Notes under the pieces: generated by a model
Told to the model about the DNA's origin: nothing
Database searches by the model: none
What the model saw: only the letters and a program-made list of their open reading frames with translations
DNA from: a virus
Length of the DNA stretch: 64,000 nt
Virus record (IMG/VR): IMGVR_UViG_3300042558_003926
Location: 124,001 to 188,000 of that record
Strand: one strand, 5' to 3'
Shown: piece after piece, positions 22,574-44,894 of the stretch
Layout: each line of letters starts with the position of its first letter
Position numbering within the stretch: position 1 is the stretch's first letter
Position numbers and translations under genes: made by a program

Positions 22574-23062
22574 GGGCCCGCTTTGGATTTGACAGGCGGA
22601 GGTAGTTCTTTGAGATGCAGGCAGTCTTAGATTGGAAAGACTTTAATTACCTATCAAACAATAAACGCAAACGTTTACAATTCTGAGGATATCATGAGTA
22701 TCCCAACTTCACTTACTCGTTCGGTAGTAACTGAAGAGGTTGAGCTAGCTGTTGCAGCCTAACCAATTGGCGGCAACTGCCAATCATAAAAGAAAGTTGC
22801 AAGCTGGCAAGAAAAAAGGTTCGTAGTATTGCCTATTTGACATTGAGTGGAACCTTGAGGATTAGTCCAATACCCATTTAGATCGTCACTATCAATGTCA
22901 GTGAAACTTGGCTAATACCTGGGAGTAGACCAGACTGAGCGTTAAGTCTGAAAGAAAAAAGAAACGCACCCAAAGTTTGTTGATGTCAAACAATCAACTA
23001 AGCCTGTGAATGAGTCCAATGGACATTCGATCTGGACGAGGGTTCGACCCCCTCCGGGTCCA
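22574..23062 (+). ncRNA. ssrA: Phage-encoded tmRNA (transfer-messenger RNA)
   Basis: The 5' end GGGCCCGCTTTGGATTTGAC has the tmRNA acceptor strand plus the conserved TGGATTYGAC. The 3' end has a T-arm (GAGGGTTCGACCCCCTC) and CGGGTCC, which pairs with GGGCCCG over all seven positions (one G-U), followed by discriminator A. The sequence then reads CTA instead of CCA. Inside, TAAACGCAAAC closely matches the resume-codon region of bacterial tmRNAs. At about 489 nt it is longer than usual. tmRNA with SmpB rescues stalled ribosomes and tags the nascent chain for proteolysis. No smpB is in the window. Confidence 0.93.
22667..22762 (+). other. tmRNA tag-peptide reading frame (31 codons plus stop)
   Basis: Reading from the resume codon GCA the tag begins ANVYNSEDIM and ends TEEVELAVAA before TAA. 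The Ala-Asn start and the hydrophobic AVAA end match the general form of bacterial tags (which usually end ALAA). At 31 residues it is much longer than the 8-15 usual in most bacteria. Confidence 0.75.
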
Positions 23063-23070
23063 CTAAATTA

Positions 23071-29629: not shown

Positions 29630-31204
29630 ATGAAGTTTTCAGAATTATCGTCAGAGCAAGTATTTGAGATTTCCAAAATATATTGGGATCGAAAGATGGG
29701 ATGGGACGAAAGAATGGAGGCTCTCAGTCAGTATCTAGGTAAATCCGAAAGAACTGTTCAGAAGTGGATATCAAAATTAGGTATCACAGAGAAATCCATA
29801 CAAGAATCCCCTCAGCTAATTAGAGCAAAGGAAAAAAAATTCAATAAGAGAAAAAGAAGATTCATTGTAACTTGGGCTCAAAATGATACCCCAGTTCATG
29901 ATAACTTTATTCTTAATATAGAGACATACGCTAATCATATTAACGCTGACATTCACGTCATAGCAGGAAGATATAAAAATCCAACATCAGTTTTTACTGA
30001 TAAAAAATACGAGCAGTGGCCGGATAGGATTATAAAGTATTTAGATGCAAACAGACACGAGATCCATAAATATATGTGGATAATGTCCGATGTTAAAATA
30101 CAGCCTACTGCGGTTGATCCTATGACTGGGCTTCAGGGTATGACCGGGATAAATTCATGTATATTCGGATCACCCAAGGTTCAGATGGAAACAATTCCAG
30201 TGCTTGAAGGAAATCTACCCAAGATTATGATGACTACCGGCGCATGCACGGTGAAAAATTATACAGATTCAAAATCGGGTAAAAAAGGAGAATTCCATCA
30301 CACATTGGGATTTGTCGTAGTTGAAATTAAAGATGATGAAACATTTTTTGCCCGACAGGTAACAGCAAATGAAGCTGGTGATTTTACCGACCTTTACTAC
30401 AGGGTAGAATATGATCCGGACTCAGATCAAAGCACAGTAAAAACAATAGATAGAGTCTCTGCAATTATCCTGGGAGATGTCCATTATGGACAACATGACC
30501 AGGAGGTTCTTGATAATACTCTGGGAATGTTTAAAAACATCAAGCCTGATTATGTGGTACTTCATGATGTTTTCGATGGTCTTTCTATAAATCATCACGA
30601 ATCCAATGATCCTTTCGTTCAGTATCATCGTGAGATAGAAGGCACTAATTCTCTTAGAAATGAGATAGATGCCATGCTAAATGGTCTGGAGGAGTTCAGA
30701 AACTATAAAACAGTTATAGTAAGAAGTAACCATGATGATTTCTTAGATCGATGGTTAAAGAACACCGACTGGAGAAAGGCAACTACAATGAAGAATTCCA
30801 TAGAATACATGGAGTTTAGTACGTTGCTTCTTAAAGGGGAAGCACCAAATGGGATCATTCCGTACCTCATAAAGCAAAAATTCCCAGATTTTATTACTCT
30901 AGGAAGAAGCGACAGTTTTGTTATAAAAGACTGGGAGTTGGGACAGCACGGTGATATTGGTTCAAATGGAGCCAGAGGTTCTCTTTTACAATTCAGAAAA
31001 TTGAATAGAAAATTAGTGGTAGGACATTATCATTCACCAGGAAGAAAGGACGGAGCACTTGCTGTTGGTACCTCTACTAAACTAAGAGTAAATTACAATC
31101 TAGGACCTAGCGGATGGCTACATTCACATGTGATTATACATGATGATGGTAAGGCACAGCACATAAACTTCATAAAGGGTGGATTTACCACTCTAAAGAA
31201 TTAA
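29630..31204 (+). CDS. Calcineurin-like phosphoesterase related to phage T5 A1 protein
   Basis: This 524-residue protein has an N-terminal helix-turn-helix-like segment (YLGKSERTVQKWISKLGI) and a C-terminal metallophosphatase domain: AIILGDVHYGQHDQ, VLHDVFDGLS, VIVRSNHDDFLDRWL and KLVVGHYHSPGRK. The layout matches the A1 protein of T5, which is needed for host DNA degradation and completion of DNA transfer, and its relatives in other large phages. The metal ligands are intact. It is the second phosphoesterase in this region. Confidence 0.82.
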   Translation: MKFSELSSEQVFEISKIYWDRKMGWDERMEALSQYLGKSERTVQKWISKLGITEKSIQESPQLIRAKEKKFNKRKRRFIVTWAQNDTPVHDNFILNIETYANHINADIHVIAGRYKNPTSVFTDKKYEQWPDRIIKYLDANRHEIHKYMWIMSDVKIQPTAVDPMTGLQGMTGINSCIFGSPKVQMETIPVLEGNLPKIMMTTGACTVKNYTDSKSGKKGEFHHTLGFVVVEIKDDETFFARQVTANEAGDFTDLYYRVEYDPDSDQSTVKTIDRVSAIILGDVHYGQHDQEVLDNTLGMFKNIKPDYVVLHDVFDGLSINHHESNDPFVQYHREIEGTNSLRNEIDAMLNGLEEFRNYKTVIVRSNHDDFLDRWLKNTDWRKATTMKNSIEYMEFSTLLLKGEAPNGIIPYLIKQKFPDFITLGRSDSFVIKDWELGQHGDIGSNGARGSLLQFRKLNRKLVVGHYHSPGRKDGALAVGTSTKLRVNYNLGPSGWLHSHVIIHDDGKAQHINFIKGGFTTLKN

Positions 31205-31232
31205 TATAGGGTCCAGGTAGACATGCTAATTT

Positions 31233-31242
31233 GGATATATAA
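31233..31242 (+). promoter_or_regulatory. GGATATATAA motif, possible late-type promoter
   Basis: It lies 18 bases before the homing endonuclease start at 31261. Confidence 0.4.
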
Positions 31243-31260
31243 TTTAAAAAAATCTAAATT

Positions 31261-31932
31261 ATGATAATCTACAAAACTACCAATTTGATAAACGGGAAGA
31301 TATACATAGGGCAAGACACCAATAACGATCCGAATTATATGGGTTCAGGAAAAATAATTAAGGAAGCAATTAAAAAATACGGAAAGTCTAGCTTTGTTAA
31401 GGAAATTCTGGAAGAATGTAAAACTATAGATCAACTGAACGAGAGGGAGATTTATTGGATCTCTTTATTTAATTCAACCGATAATAAGATAGGCTATAAT
31501 ATACTAAGGGGTGGTCTGGGATCTAAAGGATTTAAACAATCACCTGATGTTATAGAAAAGATAAGAGAAAATAGCAATTCCGATAAATTTAAGGAAATTA
31601 TGTCTTCTCCAGAAGTTTCTTCTAGGATATCTGAGGGACAATTAAAATCGGAAAAAAAGAAGGAGTTACATTCTTCTGAGGAATACAGAGAAAAAATGAG
31701 CAAAGCTCTTAAGGGTAGGACTTTTACCGACGAGCAGAGAAAAAAAATATCAGAAAGCCTGAAGGGAAAGAAAAAAACCGAGGAACACATAAAAAATCTA
31801 TCGGATTCTCTGAAAAACAGCGAAAAAATAAAAGGAGAAAAAAACCCATTCTATGGAATGAAACATTCTGAGGAAACAAAGGATAAAATAAGAAAATCAA
31901 TCCAAAGTAAAAATAATGATAGAAAAAAATAA
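31261..31932 (+). CDS. GIY-YIG homing endonuclease with NUMOD-type repeats
   Basis: The N-terminal domain has the GIY-YIG signature as IIYKTTNLINGKIYIGQD, then the conserved Arg/Glu region (LNEREIYWISLFNS). The remainder has NUMOD3-like basic repeats (RGGLGSKGFKQSPD; GRTFTDEQRKKISESLKGKK; NPFYGMKHSEETKDKIR), which bind DNA. Such free-standing (Seg-like) enzymes copy themselves into related genomes. It overlaps the start of the RNase HII gene by 17 bases, and that gene carries a 7-base frame disruption 52 bases downstream. Confidence 0.92.
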   Translation: MIIYKTTNLINGKIYIGQDTNNDPNYMGSGKIIKEAIKKYGKSSFVKEILEECKTIDQLNEREIYWISLFNSTDNKIGYNILRGGLGSKGFKQSPDVIEKIRENSNSDKFKEIMSSPEVSSRISEGQLKSEKKKELHSSEEYREKMSKALKGRTFTDEQRKKISESLKGKKKTEEHIKNLSDSLKNSEKIKGEKNPFYGMKHSEETKDKIRKSIQSKNNDRKK

Positions 31933-32522
31933 TCCACCTCTTCTTCGCGAGCTAAAGTTTATTGCTGGCGTTGATGAGGTGGGCTGAAGGCCGAGGATGT
32001 CTTTCTGGTCCAGTGGTAGCTGCTGCTGTGATACTACCCGATGGATTTTACGATCCGAGAATTAAAGACAGCAAATTAATTAAAAGTCAAAAGAAAAGAG
32101 AGGAAGTAGAACTAATCATAAAGGAGAATGCAATATCATGGGGAATAGGAGCTAGTTCACCTCAAGAGATTGATCAGATGAATATACTTCAGGCAACATT
32201 CTTGGCTATGAAAAGAGCCATAGATTCTTGCTCAAAAAAGCCCGATTTTCTATATGTGGACGGAGATAAATTCCCAGGACATAACGGAATTCCCTACGAG
32301 TGTGTCATAAAGGGTGATTCCAAGATACATTCAATTTCAGCAGCATCTATTCTGGCTAAGGTACACCGGGATAAGCTTATGAGACAGATAGGAATTGAAT
32401 ATCCAGCATATAAATGGGAAACCAATGTTGGGTACGGTACTGCTGACCACATTAATGAGATAAGAAGATCTGGATTAACAAAGCACCACAGAAAAACTTT
32501 TTGTTTAAATTTTATAAAATGA
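31916..32522 (+). CDS. rnhB: Ribonuclease HII, needs recoding (31916-31984 joined to 31992-32522)
   Basis: The first frame gives an RNase HII N-terminus (FIAGVDEVG) and stops at TGA 31985-31987. The second frame carries the rest (RGCLSGPVVAAAVILPDG, KDSKLI, YVDGDKFP, SISAASILAKVHRD). Skipping the seven bases TGAAGGC at 31985-31991 restores the perfect consensus GVDEVG-RGCLSGPV. Without that skip, initiation at ATG 31974 or TTG 31962 gives a protein without the DE catalytic pair. The gap is flanked by GGC on both sides (GGC TGAAGGC CGA), as a ribosomal hop would require. The alternatives are a +1 shift at GGC-TGA, a decaying gene, or a sequencing error. Confidence 0.78.
31982..31994 (+). other. 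Candidate translational bypass or frameshift site in the RNase HII gene
   Basis: Take-off codon GGC (31982-31984) is followed at once by TGA; landing codon GGC is at 31989-31991; translation would resume at CGA. T4 gene 60 has the same logic (matched Gly codons, stop codon after take-off) over a 50-nt gap. Confidence 0.5.
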
Positions 32523-44810: not shown

Positions 44811-44881
44811 AGTCAGGTGGCTTAGTGGTAAAGCCCGACCTTTTAAGTCGGAGTACGTAGGTTCGATTCCTGCCCTGACTA
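44811..44881 (+). tRNA. tRNA-Lys (anticodon TTT)
   Basis: Acceptor arms AGTCAGG and CCTGACT pair fully. The anticodon arm is CCGAC-CTTTTAA-GTCGG with anticodon TTT. The T-arm is GTAGG-TTCGATT-CCTGC. Discriminator is A at 44881; CCA is not encoded (CTA follows). It reads AAA and AAG; lysine AAA/AAG codons are very common in this AT-rich genome. Confidence 0.95.
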
Positions 44882-44894
44882 CTAAAAACAAAAT

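Follow-up and report, generated by a model that had tools for sequence, protein, structure and literature searches.

An apparently mobile homing-endonuclease cassette in phage rnhB genes with a putative translational bypass of its own

What becomes of a phage gene whose reading frame is closed by a stop codon inside the active-site motif of its product? The question was raised by the RNase HII gene (rnhB) in the window, a stretch of 64,000 nucleotides from the 289,651-bp virus record IMGVR_UViG_3300042558_003926. The answer proposed here, on sequence evidence alone, is that rnhB has very probably received a mobile homing-endonuclease cassette that carries its own programmed translational bypass. 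The hop of the ribosome over the stop is inferred, as no protein, ribosome-profiling or reporter data are available.

The coordinates of the locus were checked and are collected in the table. The rnhB gene starts with ATG at 31916-31918, and its first frame runs to GGC and then TGA. When TGAAGGC is left out, GVDEVG-RGCLSGP is obtained, as the original prediction had stated, and both the coordinates and the RNase_HII profile agree with it. The codon after the landing site is CGA (Arg, 31992-31994), and the downstream frame stays open until TGA at 32520-32522. The split thus separates the catalytic Asp-Glu pair from the GRG-motif Arg. The joined protein matched Pfam RNase_HII from position 1 to 197 with 123.6 bits, compared with 7-197 and 107.8 bits for the downstream part alone, and it aligned with solved RNase HII through D-E-x-G-R-G. 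The first-strand D-E and the GRG motif are present together only with the frames joined. A search of the virus record for a second RNase H (PF00075) gave no match, so that dispensability of rnhB by that route is not supported. The GIY-YIG gene that had been said to overlap the rnhB start was also found; it ends about 50 nt before the stop. An intron or known RNA at the site was considered and dismissed, with no match in Rfam.

Table. Positions of the features of the rnhB cassette in the window
Feature	Position	Strand	Remarks
Cassette left end and 5' leader (TATAGGGTCCAG...)	31205..31260	+	Partly conserved with L005, L020, L029 and L050; the phosphoesterase-like gene upstream ends immediately before it; L050 (occupied) compared with L059 (empty); weak leader fold (z -1.7)
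Free-standing GIY-YIG homing endonuclease with NUMOD3 motif, 223 aa	31261..31932	+	Pfam NUMOD3 2.4e-15, GIY-YIG 2.7e-4; PHROG homing endonuclease 4e-44
rnhB first frame, 23 sense codons MIEKNNPPLLRELKFIAGVDEVG to take-off GGC, then TGA	31916..31987	+	Holds catalytic Asp20 and Glu21; pN/pS 0.12-0.15 across cassettes
Predicted take-off hairpin, 5' arm 31933-31940 (UCCACCUC), 3' arm 31976-31983 (GAGGUGGG)	31933..31983	+	3' arm covers bases 1 and 2 of the take-off codon
Putative take-off codon GGC (Gly23)	31982..31984	+	
Stop and spacer, TGA A (TGA 31985-31987, A 31988)	31985..31988	+	Other carriers: TGA, TAA, TAGA, TAAT, TAATT, TGAATTT
Putative landing codon GGC, native Gly codon of rnhB	31989..31991	+	
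rnhB second frame, RGCLSGP... to C terminus and stop	31992..32522	+	Pfam RNase_HII

Further carriers of the stop were found by DNA pattern scans and by scans of viral contigs with the downstream protein, two of the latter restricted to the portion beyond the landing codon. Thirteen distinct phage rnhB genes with GAY-GAG-GTG-GGC-stop were obtained (the window, L029, L005, L013, L014, L020, L053, L044, L050, L051, L144, L189 and L173), plus one arginine version (L313). Carriers with the same gene were grouped: L002 and L003 with the window, L023 with L013, and L045 and L166 with L044; L314 has a stretch identical to that of L313. A read error, which had been named as a possible refutation, was ruled out, as was chance, by L002 and L003, contigs from two other samples with the same stop site as the window, and by a stop at the exact codon in twelve further distinct rnhB genes. 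A scan for the pattern, which covered about 85,000 bacterial and archaeal species or genomes, revealed no GGC-stop at this place of rnhB. Among the INPHARED phages no close relative of the window rnhB was found; the nearest has 48% identity, and consequently no isolate is at hand. Six other viral contigs (L146, L152, L155, L162, L151 and L153) encode RNase HII-like genes with DEVG-W-G in place of DEVG-R-G, and thus an altered GRG motif.

In 14 of 14 carriers the stop directly follows the take-off codon, and a landing codon that encodes the take-off amino acid restores DEVG-RG. All 13 GGC carriers have a GGN codon and R-G directly after the gap. Stop and spacer together read TGAA, TGA, TAA, TAGA, TAAT, TAATT or TGAATTT, so that the stop may be TGA, TAA or TAG, the gap before the landing codon 3, 4, 5 or 7 nt, and the frame relation between the two parts 0, +1 or +2. 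The arginine version in L313 (L314) reads CGA-TGA-CGT and lies one codon later than in the GGC carriers; it and GGC-TAA-GGC in L020 are each an in-frame stop-hop site. The landing codon is identical to the take-off codon in the window, L029, L020, L044, L050 and L053 and is GGA or GGT in the other Gly carriers. The resulting mismatch at the third base in several carriers is a caveat, as is the common cassette ancestry of most carriers, which limits their independence.

None of readthrough, a +1 shift and stop reassignment can cover all carriers, given frames that differ by 0, +1 and +2 and the presence of each of the three stops, whereas re-pairing of the Gly- (or Arg-) tRNA with the native codon covers every one and restores the exact DEVG-RG. 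To judge from the sequences, the normal motif would result throughout only if the ribosome hopped from GGC to the native GGN (or from CGA to CGU). The endonuclease-linked GGC-to-GGC hop with the logic of T4 gene 60, as first proposed, is therefore the best fit to the stops, gaps and landing codons of all relatives, with expression of the product still inferred. The fallback offered with it, a +1 shift at GGC-TGA, fared less well, since relatives with gaps of 3, 5 or 7 nt have other frame relations or spacing. The joined protein might still be made by recoding specific to each lineage: in the window, a +1 shift would add two residues to an otherwise full-length protein, and L005 and L020 are in frame, as stop readthrough would need. 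We give this reading only a very slight chance. It requires a mechanism of its own for each gap length (3, 4, 5 and 7 nt) and for each of TGA, TAA and TAG, and it adds residues inside the GRG motif, which does not vary among these relatives. In addition, a glycine tRNA re-pairs poorly with GCU in the +1 frame. Reassignment of the stop was rejected, as TGA, TAA and TAG each end genes in the window and all three are found at the hop site. A phage glycine tRNA was rejected too; a tRNA-Lys(UUU) at 44811-44882 was the sole tRNA found in the record. As a separate observation, the window has a tmRNA gene (22574-23063, + strand) with the tag EEVELAVAA, in a phage.

Hardly any weight is left for two polypeptides, a 23-residue peptide and a re-initiated C-terminal part, that assemble as in other genes split by homing endonucleases. 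The window has an ATG at -15 and TTG at -18/-27 upstream of the landing codon in the landing frame, but no landing-frame start precedes the landing codon in L005, L013, L014, L020, L050 and L189, and the first start after it would remove the GRG motif in all six.

A single product made by a hop is also in keeping with the predicted structure of the mRNA. The fold of 31916-31987 in the window had an MFE of -27.4 and a z of -5.2 (0 of 200 shuffles). Its outer stem has 8 bp, compared with 11-18 pairs in some other carriers, and z ranged from -4.2 to -8.3 over the carriers (L144 -6.8, L189 -5.5, L173 -6.5, L005 -6.1, L014 -8.3, L313 -4.2, and -4.6 to -6.1 in L013, L020, L044, L050, L051 and L053). 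A strong hairpin was absent from the seven empty relatives folded (z -1.1 to +1.8). The median energy of the stem upstream of and in the take-off region was -15.3 in carriers compared with -5.4 in 51 stop-free genes (p 2e-8, not corrected for kinship). On alignment A5, five base pairs were changed on both sides (2 of 500 shuffles), and 84% of the alignment cells pair compared with at most 51% for slid partners. When synonymous recoding served as the null, the observed strength was reached in 0-12 of 2000 recodings (7 of 2000 for the window). The arms of the L313 hairpin differ in sequence but not in where they end relative to take-off, which we read as an independent line of support. The stem would also account for the invariance of GAGGUGGGC, even though this phage seldom uses the codons GTG and GGC. 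One rnhB gene without stop, gap or adjoining endonuclease (L320, 2929-3534; same site in L319 and L321) has the same strong hairpin (z -6.1), so the hairpin alone is no proof of bypass; L320 may be a carrier revertant or the ancestral state.

Two further signals at the take-off site were considered. The residues PPxLxEL are kept in most cassettes; their bases are also those of the stem, empty relatives have similar residues, and a nascent-peptide signal cannot be separated from the stem. GAGGUG directly 5' of GGC could suggest a hop driven by Shine-Dalgarno pairing, but the phage genes lack Shine-Dalgarno sequences (5 of 58, control 18%) and GAGGUG is the hairpin 3' arm, which leaves this as a minor possibility. 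The phage gene starts are A-rich at -12 and without Shine-Dalgarno sequence, as in Bacteroidota; Bacteroidia ribosomes do not recognize such sequences, according to PMC9976891. Of the criteria for a bypass, a stop after the take-off codon, disjoined frames and a 5' mRNA structure are met in rnhB, and codon identity is met in part.

Two disjoined frames encode one conserved protein, in that the joined product fits the whole RNase_HII profile and both parts are under purifying selection. In the cassette-borne 19 codons that immediately precede the stop, pN/pS was 0.15 overall (bootstrap 0.06-0.31) and 0.12 where the endonuclease is lost or being lost (bootstrap 0.03-0.28). The catalytic D and E are retained in all carriers. 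Beyond codon 30, in the downstream part, carrier branches showed 159 synonymous compared with 40 nonsynonymous codon changes. Compared with the branches of empty sisters, the nonsynonymous share was slightly higher (40/199 vs 26/220, Fisher p 0.02), which may reflect a modest relaxation of constraint. The carrier branches include time before acquisition, and selection under the stop is not isolated for the downstream part. These data bear on the simplest alternative, a broken gene, with translation terminated at the stop and the downstream part decaying as the remnant of a recent insertion. Some insertions are indeed recent (L050 vs L059), relaxation on the carrier branches is slight but present, and the host cell owns RNases H. 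Even so, decay is decidedly unlikely: the N-terminal pN/pS is far below 1, downstream changes are mainly synonymous, and a specific covarying hairpin is not expected to persist in a dead gene. Moreover, seven carriers without an intact nuclease at the site, some with a remnant (L013, L014, L053, L044, L051, L189 and L313), keep both frames open and the catalytic residues.

The cassette that we infer to carry the bypass consists of the leader, the endonuclease gene and a replacement rnhB 5' end (about the first 23 residues, to the first Gly of GRG, then the stop). The window nuclease scored above the cut-off for NUMOD3; for GIY-YIG it reached 21.6 bits on the protein, below the cut-off of 22.6, and 24.1 bits, above the cut-off, in the genome search. 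Half of the carriers adjoin a homing endonuclease, which may be GIY-YIG, Vsr-like or DUF559-like, and the other half have lost it. In L173 a Vsr/NUMOD3 nuclease lies on the opposite strand. The nuclease of L144 is of another kind (weak DUF559 match; PHROG 22677) and lies between the replacement rnhB 5' end and a native-type one, MIKEKKLLIEWPDYKYVAGLDEVG, whose survival upstream of the endonuclease places the insertion point at DEVG. L313 has a truncated native-like start, MKTLTKLKPYFNDCY, upstream. Three side observations concern the surroundings. The endonuclease leader of the window (31205-31275) has AATTTGGAT...ATCTAAATT complementarity around TATATAA, reminiscent of phage homing-endonuclease control hairpins, with a fold of only z -1.7. 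The phosphoesterase-like gene (29630-31204, + strand; PHROG 'DNA transfer protein', 3e-149) lies upstream of rnhB in most relatives. An ORF near rnhB in L014 (1784-3085) resembles a TnpB/OrfB-type protein.

The position of the arms inside the cassette allows another reading, in which they are a DNA feature, such as a recognition or protection site of the endonuclease, unrelated to translation, and any bypass is driven otherwise. The arms without a stop in L320 would fit this as well. We consider it unlikely, because the arms persist without an endonuclease and beside three kinds of endonuclease, because L313 has different arms at the same place, and because G-U pairs and two-sided changes fit RNA.

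The cassette is, as far as sequence comparison can tell, patchy and mobile. On the rnhB tree, 13 changes of carrier state were required for 14 carriers, equal to shuffled labels, and at least 10 are forced by supported branches. Insertion of the GIY-YIG element is patchy, with empty sites in relatives; occupied L050 and empty L059 are 99.4% identical downstream. The window and L029 share 99.2% identity in the endonuclease and 100% in the N-terminal part and then 77% in the first 100 nt past the landing codon, which sets the right edge of the cassette at the hop site. Intact genes in related phages, which had been listed as a possible refutation, thus do exist, but they are taken as empty sites of a mobile element and not as counter-evidence to recoding. 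The take-off hairpin, the mobility and the endonuclease-less carriers were not part of the original prediction and are added here.

In the proposed mechanism, the ribosome would translate rnhB to GGC, with the stop then in the A site. The hairpin, its 3' arm just out of the P and E sites, would re-form behind the ribosome and pull the mRNA back through it. The peptidyl-tRNA-Gly would release GGC, skip the stop and 0-4 nt, and re-pair with the native GGN 6-10 nt downstream, and translation would resume at Arg. That the hairpin powers the hop is inferred by analogy with the stem-loops of T4 gene 60. By the same analogy, the endonuclease probably cuts at the DEVG/RG codons, which are hard for the host gene to change, although its target has not been shown. 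Most likely the insert confers homing resistance, shielding the donor's own site from cleavage, while the bypass would keep RNase HII active; this is inferred without cleavage data. With a site in active-site codons that the phage cannot change freely, insert plus bypass would be a route to protection.

To our knowledge, programmed bypassing has so far meant essentially one phage case, T4 gene 60, and yeast mitochondria. The rnhB set would supply short, natural and comparable hop sites that vary in stop, gap, codon and stem, so that the roles of hairpin, codon match and stop become directly testable with small constructs. It would also mean that a selfish endonuclease can target codons that the host gene cannot mutate while the gene still works, and it is a warning that such bypassed genes get annotated as truncated. 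No convincing case of the same hairpin and stop in other genes was found among viral stretches outside rnhB.

By profile search the window nuclease belongs to the free-standing phage GIY-YIG/NUMOD3 homing endonucleases, a family to which a linked recoding element is foreign. The putative bypass in the terminase of Streptomyces phage Hau3 likewise has a short gap in a phage gene; it differs in its UUA codon context and a Shine-Dalgarno proposal, and no endonuclease link is mentioned in PMC5009743. Magnusiomyces capitatus mitochondria, cited in the same source, resemble the rnhB set in their many bypassed inserts and sometimes imperfectly matched take-off and landing codons, but there many genes are concerned and the process is seemingly independent of mRNA context. 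The stop-hops obtained in laboratory E. coli (Weiss et al. 1987, as reviewed in PMC5009743) are a further likeness, which includes the CGA-TGA-CGT of L313; those constructs were synthetic, whereas the rnhB sites are natural. According to the recoding review no natural in-frame stop-hops are known, and short natural ones are expected (PMC5009743). We think it likely that the rnhB genes represent a recurrent class of mobile phage cassettes that targets the RNase HII active site and brings a hairpin-driven stop-hop of 6-10 nt in any frame, including the first natural in-frame stop-hops (GGC-UAA-GGC and CGA-UGA-CGU) and an independent Arg version, in phages whose starts lack Shine-Dalgarno pairing.

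The closest likeness in layout is to T4 gene 60, where a stop likewise comes immediately after a Gly codon at take-off, the landing codon also encodes Gly and a homing endonuclease adjoins (PMC5009743, PMC11194080). In gene 60, forward sliding is favoured by stem-loops that form behind the ribosome (PMC11194080, PMC5009743), and the insert beside the homing endonuclease may have protected against cleavage (PMC5009743); both are inferred for rnhB. The rnhB cassettes differ in that 6-10 nt instead of 50 would be skipped, in an RNase HII instead of a topoisomerase gene, from GGC instead of GGA, often to a synonymous landing codon, and in many phages with several endonuclease types. We therefore file the rnhB cassette as a variant of programmed bypassing and not as a homologue of T4 gene 60.
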